A stretch of 32,720 nt of DNA from a virus, in IMG/VR virus record IMGVR_UViG_3300032293_002246, positions 1 to 32,720 of that record; one strand, 5' to 3'. Below, in pieces: positions 14,683 through 30,283 of the stretch (within the stretch, counting starts at the first letter, position 1; every line of letters starts with the position of its first letter). A model generated the notes under the pieces. That model was given only the letters and a program-made list of their open reading frames with translations, was not told the origin of the DNA and did no database searches. The translations under genes were made by a program, and so were the position numbers.

Positions 14683-16470
14683 GTGGCAAACAGACGCATA
14701 AGCGAATTCGATTCAATCGACGGCGCCGATATTGTCAACGAGGATCTCATGACGCTGGTCCACGTATTTGAAGTGGATCCATTGTTGCGCAATAAAAAAA
14801 TCACTTTTACGCAGTTTAGAGAATACCTTAATCAACATTACGCTACCGTCACTGGGGATACAATTAGCGGAAACATTGTTATTGAAGGCAACTTAGACGT
14901 TAGTGGTACTGCAGCTTTTGGTACAACAACTGCTACAGGACTAAGTACATTTAATGCAGTTGTTATTCAGAACACTTTAAATCTCAGTGGAGTAGCTAGC
15001 GGAACAACGTTTACCGGAGCAAATGCTAACTTTAGAAACGGGCGCTTTACAACACAGCTTTCCGGCATTGTCATTACTGGAGACACTATTCGCTCAACCA
15101 CTGGTCAATTTCAATCTATTACGGGAGCCACCGGGACATTTACATCTGTTATCTCAGGCGTTACGGTAACTGGAGATACGGCTCGATTCACAACAATTAC
15201 CGGTCAAACAATATCGAGTCAGTCAATTTCTGGAGTATCGGGTACGTTTAACGATTATGTATCCGGTGGAACCATTACTGGTGTAAGCGGGCAATTCACA
15301 GAAGTTACTGGTGGCACTTTAAACGTAACAACAGGAACTGTACAAGTTTTAACTGTTAATAGTCAAGCAGTTCAAAACAACTTGACTGTTACCGGCAACA
15401 TAGTAACAAACGGTACAGTCACAGCAAGTGGCTCTGTTAATTCCAGTGGCAATCTAACTGTTAATGGTTCTGGTTCTTTTGGATCAGGGCTTACGGTCAG
15501 TGGTACTTTAAGCGGGGCAACTATTACCGGCACTACCGCCATATTTACTTCAGTTAATGGCGGTACAGGTGTTTTTACAGTACAACTTTCAGGCGAAAAT
15601 ATTACAGGATCGGGAGCAACATTTAGCGTAGTTACTGGAATTTCCGGAACATTTACATCCCGAATTTCAGGCGCAACTATTACAGGAACTAACGGACGTT
15701 TTACAAATGTCACCGGTACCAACGGAACATTTACTTCCCTGTCAGGGGGCACAATTACCGGTGTTAGTGGTTTGTTTACCAATATAACCGGCATTAGCGG
15801 TGGGTTTACCGTACTTACAGGTGAAACTGTTACGGGTAACCTGGCTAATTTTGTGTCAGGTGTTTATACCTCTGAGCTATCAGGCGCAACAATAACCGGG
15901 AATACTTTACGGGCAACCAGTGGTGTTTTTCAAAATTTAACAGCAGTCAACCAAACTTTCTCGGGCAATCTTACATTTTCTGGTACAACCACTACCCTTG
16001 GTTCAGGGTTGTTTGCTTCTGGTATTAATGTCACAGGCACTGTAAGTGGAATAACAGTTACAGGAACCAGTGGTCAATTTACAACGGTGACGGCAAATAC
16101 TGGTAATTTTGTTTTAGCAACAGGCACAACTGCTGCTTTTGCCACCGGCATCTTTACTACAACGCTTTCCGGTTCAACTGTCACTGGAACCACTGCGCAA
16201 TTTATTACAGTCACGAGCACAACCGGAACATTTACTACACTTACCGGCACTACAATTTCAGGGGCAACTGCTAATGTGGGAACAGGAAATTTCAACCGAG
16301 TTTCAGGTGCAACGGTAACTGGTGCAACAGGTGCATTTACAAATATCACAGGAAGCACTCTTAGAATCACAACTCCCTCTGGCGGAACTTCTGCGGTCAT
16401 ATGCTCTGGTATATTTGAAGGTGGAGTTTCGGGATTTATTATTCAGGGCCCCTTGATAATCCTTCCTTAA
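14683..16470 (+). CDS. Repeat-built tail fibre or spike protein, 595 aa
   Basis: GTG start 8 nt after the palindrome. Residues 1-50 (RRISEFDSIDGADIVNEDLM, then LLRNKKITFTQFREYL) form a compact N-terminal module that resembles fibre attachment domains of cyanophages. From about residue 55 the protein consists of tandem units of the form SGxTITGxxGxFTxVTGxxGTFT, Gly/Thr/Ser-rich, with an aromatic Phe at regular spacing, as expected of a triple-beta-helix shaft. The last 25 residues (VICSGIFEGGVSGFIIQG) are distinct. It is a receptor-contact candidate; no enzymatic motif is seen. Confidence 0.75.
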   Translation: MANRRISEFDSIDGADIVNEDLMTLVHVFEVDPLLRNKKITFTQFREYLNQHYATVTGDTISGNIVIEGNLDVSGTAAFGTTTATGLSTFNAVVIQNTLNLSGVASGTTFTGANANFRNGRFTTQLSGIVITGDTIRSTTGQFQSITGATGTFTSVISGVTVTGDTARFTTITGQTISSQSISGVSGTFNDYVSGGTITGVSGQFTEVTGGTLNVTTGTVQVLTVNSQAVQNNLTVTGNIVTNGTVTASGSVNSSGNLTVNGSGSFGSGLTVSGTLSGATITGTTAIFTSVNGGTGVFTVQLSGENITGSGATFSVVTGISGTFTSRISGATITGTNGRFTNVTGTNGTFTSLSGGTITGVSGLFTNITGISGGFTVLTGETVTGNLANFVSGVYTSELSGATITGNTLRATSGVFQNLTAVNQTFSGNLTFSGTTTTLGSGLFASGINVTGTVSGITVTGTSGQFTTVTANTGNFVLATGTTAAFATGIFTTTLSGSTVTGTTAQFITVTSTTGTFTTLTGTTISGATANVGTGNFNRVSGATVTGATGAFTNITGSTLRITTPSGGTSAVICSGIFEGGVSGFIIQGPLIILP

Positions 16471-28350: not shown

Positions 28351-28492
28351 AGAACGTTTAACTCGTTTTTTCATGTGGTTACGGCATCAAATTCCAGAGC
28401 CATCCGATGGATGGCAACAAAAAATGCAGCCATGTAGATGGGCTAAAATACTGGAAGAACGTAAAAATAATCTTGATGTCTCAAGAGAATAA
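28313..28492 (+). CDS. Hypothetical protein, 59 aa
   Basis: This frame overlaps the end of the 70-aa gene. GTG 28313 gives MAQKKKRNTTSDEERLTRFF; ATG 28289 is an alternative. The protein-like segment MWLRHQIPEPSDGWQQKMQP, then CRWAKILEERKNN, with regular Trp, Pro and Arg, argues for a real gene. It ends inside the next gene. No family is recognised. Confidence 0.5.
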   Translation: MAQKKKRNTTSDEERLTRFFMWLRHQIPEPSDGWQQKMQPCRWAKILEERKNNLDVSRE

Positions 28493-28754
28493 ATATACAA
28501 AACCAGAGTTACGCGAAAGTATTAAAGATCGCGTGATGGCTGGTTCCAAGGGCGGTAAGCCGGGTCAATGGAGTGCACGCAAAGCTCAACTTGTTGCTCA
28601 GCAGTACGAAAAAGCAGGTGGTGGTTACAAAGGCGGTAAAGGTGAAAAACAAAAGTCGTTGGAAAAATGGAGCAAAGAAAAATGGATGACCAAAGACGAG
28701 TATGAAAAAAGAGGTAAAGCTAAGGCCGCAGCAAAGAAATATAAAGATGGCTGA
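28476..28754 (+). CDS. DUF5872-type protein, 92 aa
   Basis: Start at ATG 28476 (MSQENKYTKPELRESIKDRV). MAGSKGGKPGQWSARKAQLV, then AQQYEKAGGGYKGGKGEKQK and SLEKWSKEKWMTKDEYEKRG is the DUF5872 pattern, found in phages and giant viruses; function unknown. It is Lys-rich and probably nucleic-acid-associated. It overlaps the following gene by 8 nt. Confidence 0.75.
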   Translation: MSQENKYTKPELRESIKDRVMAGSKGGKPGQWSARKAQLVAQQYEKAGGGYKGGKGEKQKSLEKWSKEKWMTKDEYEKRGKAKAAAKKYKDG

Positions 28755-28953
28755 CAAAGCAATACAAAAAGGATATACCAAACGTTACCTTCCGGAAAGT
28801 GCGTGGGCTTCACTGTCTGAAAAGGAACGTGCTAAGACTGACGCAAAGAAAAAAGCTGGTAGCAAACAAGGCAAGCAATTTGTACCTAACACAGAAGCAG
28901 CAAAGAAAGCCGGTAAAGCCGCCCGTGCATCTAAACGTTACAAAGATAAATAA
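28747..28953 (+). CDS. Small basic protein, companion of DUF5872, 68 aa
   Basis: ATG 28747 overlaps the DUF5872-type gene. GYTKRYLPESAWASLSEKER, then AKTDAKKKAGSKQGKQFVPN and AKKAGKAARASKRYKDK resembles the KRYLP..W..LS..E...TD.KK..GSK.GKQFV.NT domain often found beside or fused to DUF5872 modules. Highly basic; a DNA-binding or condensing role is plausible. Confidence 0.65.
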   Translation: MADKAIQKGYTKRYLPESAWASLSEKERAKTDAKKKAGSKQGKQFVPNTEAAKKAGKAARASKRYKDK

Positions 28954-28959
28954 CTCATC

Positions 28960-28965
28960 TATACT
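28960..28965 (+). promoter_or_regulatory. -10-like box before the Lys-rich gene
   Basis: TATACT followed by TAATAAAG, 21 nt before ATG 28987. Confidence 0.4.
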
Positions 28966-28986
28966 TAATAAAGATTCCTGATTACC

Positions 28987-29157
28987 ATGGAAAAGAAAAA
29001 AGCTATTCCCTCTAAGAAAGCTGTGCCTCCTGCTAAAGGTAAAGCTGCTCCCCCTGTCAAAGGCAAAGGTGGCGCATCTACTAAACAAACGGAAGCGCGT
29101 GACAAATTCAAAGAAATGATTGCAAAAAAGAAAGAAGCTGCCGCCAAAAAGAAATAA
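28987..29157 (+). CDS. Lys/Ala/Pro-rich histone-like small protein, 56 aa
   Basis: The frame starts MEKKKAIPSKKAVPPAKGKA and ends KEMIAKKKEAAAKKK. It is low-complexity, with about one third Lys plus Ala and Pro, resembling the disordered tails of histone H1-like proteins. A short helical part (TEARDKFKEMIAKKKE) closes it. It probably binds nucleic acids. Codon pattern, its own promoter-like box and the following terminator support a real gene. Confidence 0.6.
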   Translation: MEKKKAIPSKKAVPPAKGKAAPPVKGKGGASTKQTEARDKFKEMIAKKKEAAAKKK

Positions 29158-29854: not shown

Positions 29855-29859
29855 ACTGT

Positions 29860-29865
29860 TACAAT
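29860..29865 (+). promoter_or_regulatory. -10-like box driving the structured RNA region
   Basis: TACAAT; the expected start (about 29872) coincides with the 5' strand of the outermost stem (29871-29877). Confidence 0.4.
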
Positions 29866-29870
29866 ATCAT

Positions 29871-29984
29871 TGATAGAGGCCAGGTCCCTGTGCGCGTTAG
29901 GCACATAGCCTAGAAGGCGGCGTTGGGCACATAGCCCAGAAGGCGACACACCTGGCCCATCACACTACCCATGCTGTTCTATCA
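29871..29984 (+). ncRNA. Candidate structured RNA with tandem covarying hairpins
   Basis: TGATAGA (29871-29877) pairs with TCTATCA (29978-29984). GGCCAGGT (29878-29885) pairs with ACCTGGCC (29950-29957). Enclosed are two tandem 26-nt units (29894-29919, 29920-29945), each with a hairpin TRGGC-ACATA-GCCYA. They differ at only two positions, A/G and T/C, which pair with each other, so the change is compensatory. No reading frame accounts for this. Promoter-like box immediately upstream, tRNAs downstream. Not recognised as a known Rfam family by memory. Confidence 0.6.
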
Positions 29985-30037
29985 GTATGGTGCAACGCAT
30001 GGACCGGAAATTTTCAGTCGCCGCGTTTGCGTACAAC

Positions 30038-30122
30038 ACCCCCTAAGCCTAGCTCTCAGACGGTGACCATTTTGTTGACGTCGACAAAATGGTTACTAGA
30101 GATGATGCTCAAACCTGGGGGT
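30038..30122 (+). ncRNA. Second structured segment before the tRNAs
   Basis: A 13-bp hairpin, GTGACCATTTTGT (30063-30075) with ACAAAATGGTTAC (30084-30096; one G-T pair), has an 8-nt loop containing GACGTC. It is enclosed by ACCCCC (30038-30043) and GGGGGT (30117-30122). No T-run follows. It could be a second domain of the same RNA, a processing signal for the tRNA precursor or a DNA operator. No coding frame seen in 29855-30133. Confidence 0.45.
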
Positions 30123-30133
30123 CACTTAATTAC

Positions 30134-30205
30134 CGGGATGTAGCTCAGCGGTAGAGTGCTGCTTTTGGGAAGCAGATGCCACAGGTTCGATTCCTGTTAT
30201 CCCGA
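30134..30205 (+). tRNA. tRNA-Pro (TGG)
   Basis: A 72-nt cloverleaf: 7-bp acceptor (CGGGATG with TATCCCG, one G-T), D-arm GCTC/GAGT, anticodon stem CTGCT/AGCAG with loop TTTGGGA giving anticodon TGG, five-base variable loop, T-arm ACAGG-TTCGATT-CCTGT, discriminator A. CCA is not encoded. It starts 11 nt after the second structured RNA segment. Confidence 0.92.
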
Positions 30206-30209
30206 CCTT

Positions 30210-30283
30210 GCTGATGTAGCTCAGTTGGATAGAGCAGGGTTTTTGTAAAGCTCAGGCCAGGAGTTCAAGTCTCCTCATCAGCT
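30210..30283 (+). tRNA. tRNA-Thr (TGT)
   Basis: A 74-nt cloverleaf: acceptor GCTGATG/CATCAGC, D-arm GCTC/GAGC, anticodon stem GGGTT/AGCTC (two wobble pairs) with loop TTTGTAA giving anticodon TGT, T-arm AGGAG-TTCAAGT-CTCCT, discriminator T, CCA not encoded. It lies 4 nt after tRNA-Pro, so the two are surely co-transcribed. The weak anticodon stem is unusual but acceptable. Confidence 0.9.

Follow-up and report, generated by a model that had tools for sequence, protein, structure and literature searches.

The window analysed in this work is a complete virus record from IMG/VR comprising 32,720 bases. Its primase shares 56% identity with the primase of Synechococcus phage S-EIV1, a freshwater isolate, and a 182-aa protein encoded 5' of the array described below has its sole relative among isolates in Synechococcus phage S-CRM01. 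Based upon these two proteins the virus is very probably a cyanophage, and its hosts are presumably freshwater cyanobacteria. The region of interest (positions 29857-30133) consists of a promoter and at least three mutually independent RNA modules arranged as an array, behind which the genes for tRNA-Pro and tRNA-Thr are located (Table 1). In a preliminary description, this region was regarded as one structured RNA that lies upstream of the phage tRNAs and contains no reading frame. The last two of these points are upheld by our results, as the two tRNAs come next in the sequence and zero ORFs of at least 40 aa overlap with the region on either strand, but the view of a single RNA is not, since every module is also found in other contexts. 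The fold of the entire region was better than those of all 200 of 200 dinucleotide shuffles (z of -4.56), and two portions of it folded alone, viz. 30033-30128 and 29962-30038, gave z values of -5.35 and -3.05, respectively, in shuffle tests. BLAST searches of the region against phages retrieved only the tRNAs. Similarly, the Rfam search that had been proposed as a check detected only the two tRNAs at the curated cutoffs, whereas at relaxed limits abiF RNA was matched at 30039-30122. The earlier suggestion of an undescribed family thus holds for modules 1 and 2, neither of which is matched in Rfam, but not for 30039-30122, which corresponds to a diverged abiF RNA (RF03085). Matches to the families Proteo-phage-1, YrlA and anti-hemB were far under their cutoffs and were rejected as due to chance or, in the case of YrlA, to the tRNAs themselves.

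Table 1. Positions of the promoter element, RNA modules and tRNA genes in the window.
Feature	Position	Strand	Remarks
-10 element TACAAT	29860..29865	+	6 nt 5' of module 1
Module 1	29872..29961	+	not in Rfam; 55.6 bits with model R1
Two tandem 26-nt hairpin copies, apical arm of module 1	29896-29921, 29922-29947	+	ANAUA loop
Module 2	29968..30031	+	hairpin 29969-29976/29983-29990 and second arm GUGCA...UUUGCG; not in Rfam
abiF-type RNA	30039..30122	+	P1 30039-30044/30116-30121, P2 30046-30048/30107-30109; 56-nt insert hairpin in apical loop
Near-palindromic 16-bp insert hairpin of abiF-type RNA	30062..30097	+	fold
tRNA-Pro (TGG)	30134..30207	+	ARAGORN, Rfam; 5' end 11 nt past abiF-type RNA
tRNA-Thr (TGT)	30210..30283	+	ARAGORN, Rfam

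In the alignment of its homologues, module 1 follows the plan GAYAGAG-P1 (7 bp)-CYCUG-variable apical arm-CAC-P1'-CCWUC, with P1 of the window formed by 29879-29885 and 29950-29956. As its apical arm, module 1 mostly has a small hairpin, whose sequence and length vary among the homologues. Two co-linear long-range stems of 7 and 8 bp had been proposed previously for this region. The 8-bp stem GGCCAGGT/ACCTGGCC (29878-29885 with 29950-29957) is confirmed, but the 7-bp stem is not clearly supported. The outermost GAU/AUC pairs can be formed in most homologues and show zero compensatory changes, and pairing of the other long-range candidate, UGAUAGA with UCUAUCA, would compete with the hairpin 29969-29990 that is supported by covariation. 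Among 53 distinct copies of module 1, all seven pairs of P1 change on both sides, which provides strong support for the earlier proposal that RNA structure is under selection here. Substitutions that break the stem are not what the homologues exhibit, as 99.2% of the P1 cells in these copies are paired. The covariation score of P1 was matched by none of 500 shuffles, and it collapsed in slid controls; when only phage copies were considered, 100% of cells were paired and six of the seven pairs had changes on both sides. A further pairing of GAYAGAG with CYCUG across the 5' strand of P1 could be formed in 91.3% of cells with 0 pairs changing on both sides, and hence a ToxI-like H-type pseudoknot is possible in this module, though without covariation. 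A scan for the plan of module 1 identified it in 69 IMG/VR stretches, and its covariance model found three isolates, whereas BLAST of module 1 against isolates gave zero matches. Two other assignments were rejected, viz. CRISPR-DR33 (16.8 bits vs a cutoff of 39) and a degenerate tRNA. Judging from its conserved plan and covariation, module 1 is a family that is absent from Rfam.

The promoter-like TACAAT box noted earlier was also confirmed, and its placement is a recurrent feature. In 45 of 81 distinct contexts, a TANNNT hexamer is present exactly 6 or 7 nt 5' of module 1, while at other offsets such a hexamer occurs in only 0-7 of these 81 contexts. A copy of module 1 from a host genome (L206, see below) is likewise preceded by TTGACA and a -10-like box with the same spacing as in phages. 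Due to the spacing of this box, module 1 probably forms the 5' end of a transcript.

Within the long-range stem of module 1, the presence of two tandem 26-nt repeats was verified, both of which form the same RGGC-ACATA-GCCY hairpin and differ from each other only in the two partners of one base pair (A-T vs G-C). This swap had been taken as a signature of selection for RNA structure. It is indeed present, but by itself it is weak, and the real evidence is carried by the homologues. Most homologues of module 1 contain a plain P2 hairpin or other inserts at this place, and on this comparison the repeats are a phage-specific variable insert in the apical arm rather than part of the conserved core of the module. 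In pattern scans the 26-nt element was found in 23 IMG/VR stretches, and its exact pattern had 0 matches in the genomes of about 85,000 bacterial and archaeal species, based upon which its origin from a host CRISPR or another host repeat was rejected. Many phages have just one copy of the ANAUA hairpin, which is also found in other stems, and its stem shows covariation (TAGGC/GCCTA, TGGGC/GCCCA, CATGC/GCATG and CAGGC/GCCTG). The same hairpin constitutes the anticodon arm of tRNA-Ile/Met-like genes of phages. Four such cyanophage genes are short (67-69 nt; L022:3666-3734, L026:1635-1703, L110:6366-6434 and L113:8454-8521), have the anticodon loop C-A-NAU-A-G in which the usual U33 is missing, and are located directly 3' of abiF-type RNAs. 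It is a matter of speculation that the ANAUA hairpins serve as decoys for anticodon-cutting RNases.

Module 2 also appears to be a covarying hairpin family, the second new one in the array, that is absent from Rfam. Its hairpin has the loop CUCUGU, and in 15 distinct copies 100% of the cells are paired, with changes on both sides in five of the eight pairs.

The third module, 30039-30122, matched RF03085 with a score of 27.9 bits (E of 0.015), which is under the gathering cutoff of 37. In the Rfam alignment and the fold, the conserved strands AAGCCU and GCUCAAA are in place and both P1 and P2 are paired, and in the syntenic homologue L008 an abiF RNA scoring 55.3 bits, i.e., above the cutoff, is present at the same place. 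At the first pair of P2, the window has A-U, the hosts and one phage group have G-C, and another phage group has U-A; in all ten loci that were found via the insert alone, this pair, which was outside the search pattern, is matched. By these characteristics, 30039-30122 is a diverged form of abiF RNA. The apical inserts of the homologous RNAs, which are of the window type or of others, range from 9 to 71 nt, and the 56-nt insert of the window RNA might change its binding. IMG/VR pattern scans revealed the abiF core in 73 stretches and the insert type in 10. No Abi_2 gene was found in the window record.

The same RNAs are found in a broad set of phages. Of nine related virus loci that were found via the 182-aa protein, seven (L002-L008) have kept a comparable RNA region behind it. 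Next to tRNAs, these RNAs also occur in the three Synechococcus isolates S-EIV1, S-SZBM1 and S-CREM1, two of which have CB0101 as their host. The order in S-EIV1 is promoter, module 1 (16205-16272), abiF-type RNA (from 16277) and a tRNA-like sequence; in S-SZBM1 module 1, abiF RNA and tRNA-Ala stand back to back; and in S-CREM1 module 1 (155720-155774) ends 1 nt 5' of tRNA-Ala and the abiF RNA lies just 5' of tRNA-Gly. An abiF-type RNA is present within 300 nt 3' of module 1 in 32 of 88 loci. No Abi_2 gene was detected in any of 100 virus records, among them the window and the complete S-SZBM1 and S-CREM1 as well as many fragments, and hence these RNAs are orphans in the phages. Cores of abiF RNA are also seen in phages of other hosts, including Roseobacter phage CRP-143 (L117, 2501-2529), Acinetobacter phage Acj61 (L118, 2501-2522) and others among L011-L083. 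No Abi_2 gene was found in CRP-143, Acj61 and ten further records with an abiF core, and orphan abiF RNAs may be a general phenomenon in phages. Additional structured segments recur in the arrays (L008:5630-5830, L095, L098, L103 and L002:3390-3460), with sequences such as AAGTCCTGGGTTTCCAGGCC..., GTGCGCCGGGGACCGATTTGGCAAGCGCGACGGATC and TTCCCGCTCTGC..GCATCGGGC, and these are possibly more mimics of defence RNAs.

The counterparts of these RNAs in hosts were sought in 251 genomes from the family of a Cyanobium genome (Cyanobiaceae), 11 of which (4%) contain Abi_2 genes. At nine of the 11 Abi_2 loci an abiF RNA with a score of 29-34 bits, which is below the cutoff, is located directly upstream, with loops that are longer than usual. 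Its flanks and stem are nearly identical between the host loci and phages, as seen from a comparison of CAACACCCCCUAGGCC..GCCCAAACCUGGGGGUCACU in the host locus L207 with CAACACCCCCUAAGCC..GCUCAAACCUGGGGGUCACU in the window. An abiF search over the 251 genomes yielded none among the 25 candidates scored per genome, which we regard as a false negative given that direct scans of the Abi_2 loci revealed nine. At another of the 11 loci (L206) the RNA directly 5' of the Abi_2 gene is that of module 1. In order to avoid circularity, a model (R2) was built only from phage copies of module 1, and in 400 genomes of the host family it gave three matches of 56-60 bits, with no other place scoring. All three are directly 5' of an Abi_2 gene, which is intact in G085 (L206), frameshifted in G708 and reduced to a 64-aa remnant in G002. 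In G002, module 1 and the remnant are flanked by an integrase fragment on one side and by Phd/YefM-PIN toxin-antitoxin genes on the other (L288:1740-2943). The three loci, with 96-99% DNA identity there, belong to one homologous lineage and therefore represent a single evolutionary association of module 1 with Abi_2. The protein from G085 matches Abi_2 (7e-48), PADLOC AbiD (4e-46) and PDB 8vz6 ('Abi family protein'), and it contains the RNxxxH motif of HEPN proteins. No relative of module 1 was found 5' of ten AbiD/F genes from a wider range of cyanobacteria, several of which carry abiF RNA instead, and for some other cyanobacterial relatives of AbiD/F no RNA was recognised.

The best host match of module 2 (32.5 bits; E of 7.5e-5 per genome, or about 0.03 over 340 genomes) is located 20 nt 5' of a TTG-started gene. 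The product of this gene corresponds to HEC-09, a candidate defence protein in PADLOC (1e-37), with a weak match to the RNase domain NYN, and a gene for an AbiEi antitoxin is present nearby. This single match is suggestive of a link between module 2 and the NYN/HEC-09 RNase, which is put forward tentatively. The other matches of the module 2 model R3 (L293-L297) are weak, and R3 did not match the leaders of other NYN genes, which have different leader hairpins. Hairpin RNAs precede several NYN-domain genes related to HEC-09 (L303, L298 and L299). In an E. coli plasmid (L303, CP057030.1) four tandem hairpin repeats and an intrinsic terminator are found at about 333-482, 5' of the NYN gene, and in the viral contigs L298 and L299 one hairpin and a terminator occupy this position.

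The abiF RNA of C. difficile inhibits the AbiF toxin in trans by direct RNA-protein binding for which its structure is required (PMC12373285). The RNA at 30039-30122 resembles this RNA (RF03085; RCd22 of C. difficile, PMC12373285) in its P1/P2 plan and its AAGCCU and GCUCAAA strands, but differs from it in scoring below the cutoff, in its 56-nt apical insert and in having no adjoining toxin gene; modules 1 and 2 are, according to Rfam, not abiF RNAs. Escape from abortive infection by means of an RNA is known from phage PhiTE, which evades the type III system ToxIN via pseudo-ToxI, an RNA mimic of the antitoxin (PMC3475682). As in PhiTE, orphan antitoxin-like RNAs are present here in phages while the full system resides in hosts. 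However, the PhiTE mimic arose in rare escape mutants and is directed at one toxin (PMC3475682), whereas the present array is stable, joined to tRNAs, found in many natural phages and apparently directed against two or three toxin groups. It also differs from a type III toxin-antitoxin operon in that tRNAs follow it and no toxin gene can be recognised. The RNA anti-CRISPRs (Racr) are solitary phage non-coding RNAs that mimic CRISPR repeats (PMC10651486); these too imitate the RNA part of a host defence, but here it is leader RNAs of the AbiD/F type that are mimicked. Phage tRNAs are known to evade tRNA-cutting defences (PMC10264068, PMC11555353), and the tRNAs of this unit and the anticodon-arm-like hairpin could similarly counter anticodon-cutting RNases, although its main elements resemble antitoxins rather than tRNAs or substrates. 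For S-CREM1, an abiF sRNA in a tRNA array has been reported on the basis of an Rfam match and a shared motif (PMC9964418); in the portions of that account available to us, module 1, the host counterparts and the plan of the array do not figure. Hence, phage mimicry of a defence RNA is a known kind of mechanism, while the targets, the array form and two RNA families appear to be new.

The structures and their covariation, the position of the host copies before AbiD/F genes, the spacing of the promoter, the linkage to tRNAs and the orphan character of the phage copies are all observed in the sequences themselves. Considering the orphan state, the host counterparts and the mechanism known from the literature, neutralisation of host AbiD/F-type toxins is the most likely function, and we regard it as fairly probable that the array provides RNA antitoxin mimics, released by tRNA processing, that act upon these toxins in trans. 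According to this proposal, a sigma-70-type promoter would start the transcript at or beside GAUAGAG, and module 1, module 2, the abiF-type RNA, tRNA-Pro and tRNA-Thr would form one transcription unit. Module 1 would be a copy of the leader RNA from one AbiD/AbiF toxin clade, the abiF-type RNA that of another, and module 2 possibly the leader RNA of an NYN-domain RNase. When RNase P matures the tRNAs, the transcript is probably trimmed and the RNAs are released; during infection these would bind host AbiD/AbiF HEPN ribonucleases in trans, like the cognate abiF RNA, and the bound protein would stay inactive and abortive infection would fail. The transcription, processing, binding and neutralising activity of the phage RNAs are here inferred from the above observations.

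The location of the modules within tRNA arrays, where they abut tRNA genes, and the freedom of their apical arms to vary in sequence and length would also be expected if they served the processing or stability of the tRNA operon of the phage (as spacers, RNase sites or terminator-like hairpins) and had no protein target. We consider this unlikely, because nucleotides outside the helices are conserved as well (GAYAGAG, CYCUG, AxGCC and GCxCAAA), the host copies precede AbiD/F genes with no tRNAs between, and other phages have orphan abiF RNAs outside tRNA arrays. Less probable still is that the array is the phage's own toxin-antitoxin locus, whose RNAs regulate a phage toxin or nuclease that is unrecognisable as Abi_2. 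Such RNAs do stand in cis to the toxin gene in bacteria, and an HNH-type gene is located 3' of the window's tRNAs, with a similar one behind the array in L002 and L003, but 100 records are without an Abi_2 gene and the genes downstream of the array differ among phages, indicating that no single partner gene has been kept.

That the modules are decaying, functionless relics of captured defence loci is very improbable. Although they are leader RNAs devoid of their toxin genes, and the host locus is also decaying (frameshifted in L287 and truncated in L288), 99-100% of the stem cells have stayed paired in strongly diverged copies, in which both sides change, the distance to the promoter is conserved, and the modules have been retained by many different phages. 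HEPN toxins are switchable ribonucleases, and the RNAs could also be envisaged to act in the opposite sense, displacing the host antitoxin or loading the toxin, with host arrest or the exclusion of other phages as the outcome. The phage inserts in the apical arms could conceivably alter activity in this manner, but trans-expressed abiF RNA inhibits AbiF in C. difficile (PMC12373285) and a lytic phage would gain little from activating an abortive-infection toxin, which makes this the least probable of the readings considered here.

A broader form of the neutralisation proposal, which is tentative and in our estimation possible rather than probable, is that cyanophages contain RNA-only anti-defence islands, in which interchangeable copies of the antitoxin leaders of different host RNase toxins are linked to tRNAs and processed with them, some with nested hairpins resembling anticodon arms that would be decoy substrates for the same anticodon-cutting RNases. 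The targets of such islands would be two AbiD/F clades, the NYN/HEC-09 RNase and those of further modules. If this is true, modules 1 and 2 would each represent a new family of antitoxin RNAs, with HEC-09 being a toxin under RNA control.

AbiD/F proteins are described as relatives of the ribonucleases that are ancestral to Cas13 (discussed in PMC12373285). Phage escape from them is hardly known, and if neutralisation by the array is correct, they are countered by copied antitoxin RNAs and not by a protein, with these RNAs being hidden from gene finders in tRNA clusters. Reading such arrays would then also give hints as to which RNAs partner unexplored toxins; in this work an uncharted leader RNA of AbiD/F was reached in this way from module 1, and a candidate RNA partner of HEC-09 from module 2. 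With three isolated Synechococcus phages available, the idea is directly testable.

Two other parts of the window are also of interest. The segment 29160-29270, located 5' of the 182-aa gene, contains a TATACT box, a segment GGCACATAGCATGG similar to the ANAUA hairpin, and the hairpin CCTGGCTTGAGCAACCAGGG with a T run behind it, which resembles an intrinsic terminator, and it is perhaps another small RNA. Positions 28407-29157 encode three consecutive small lysine-rich proteins (115, 83 and 56 aa), of which the 115-aa protein matches phrog_17747 and, weakly, DUF5872.
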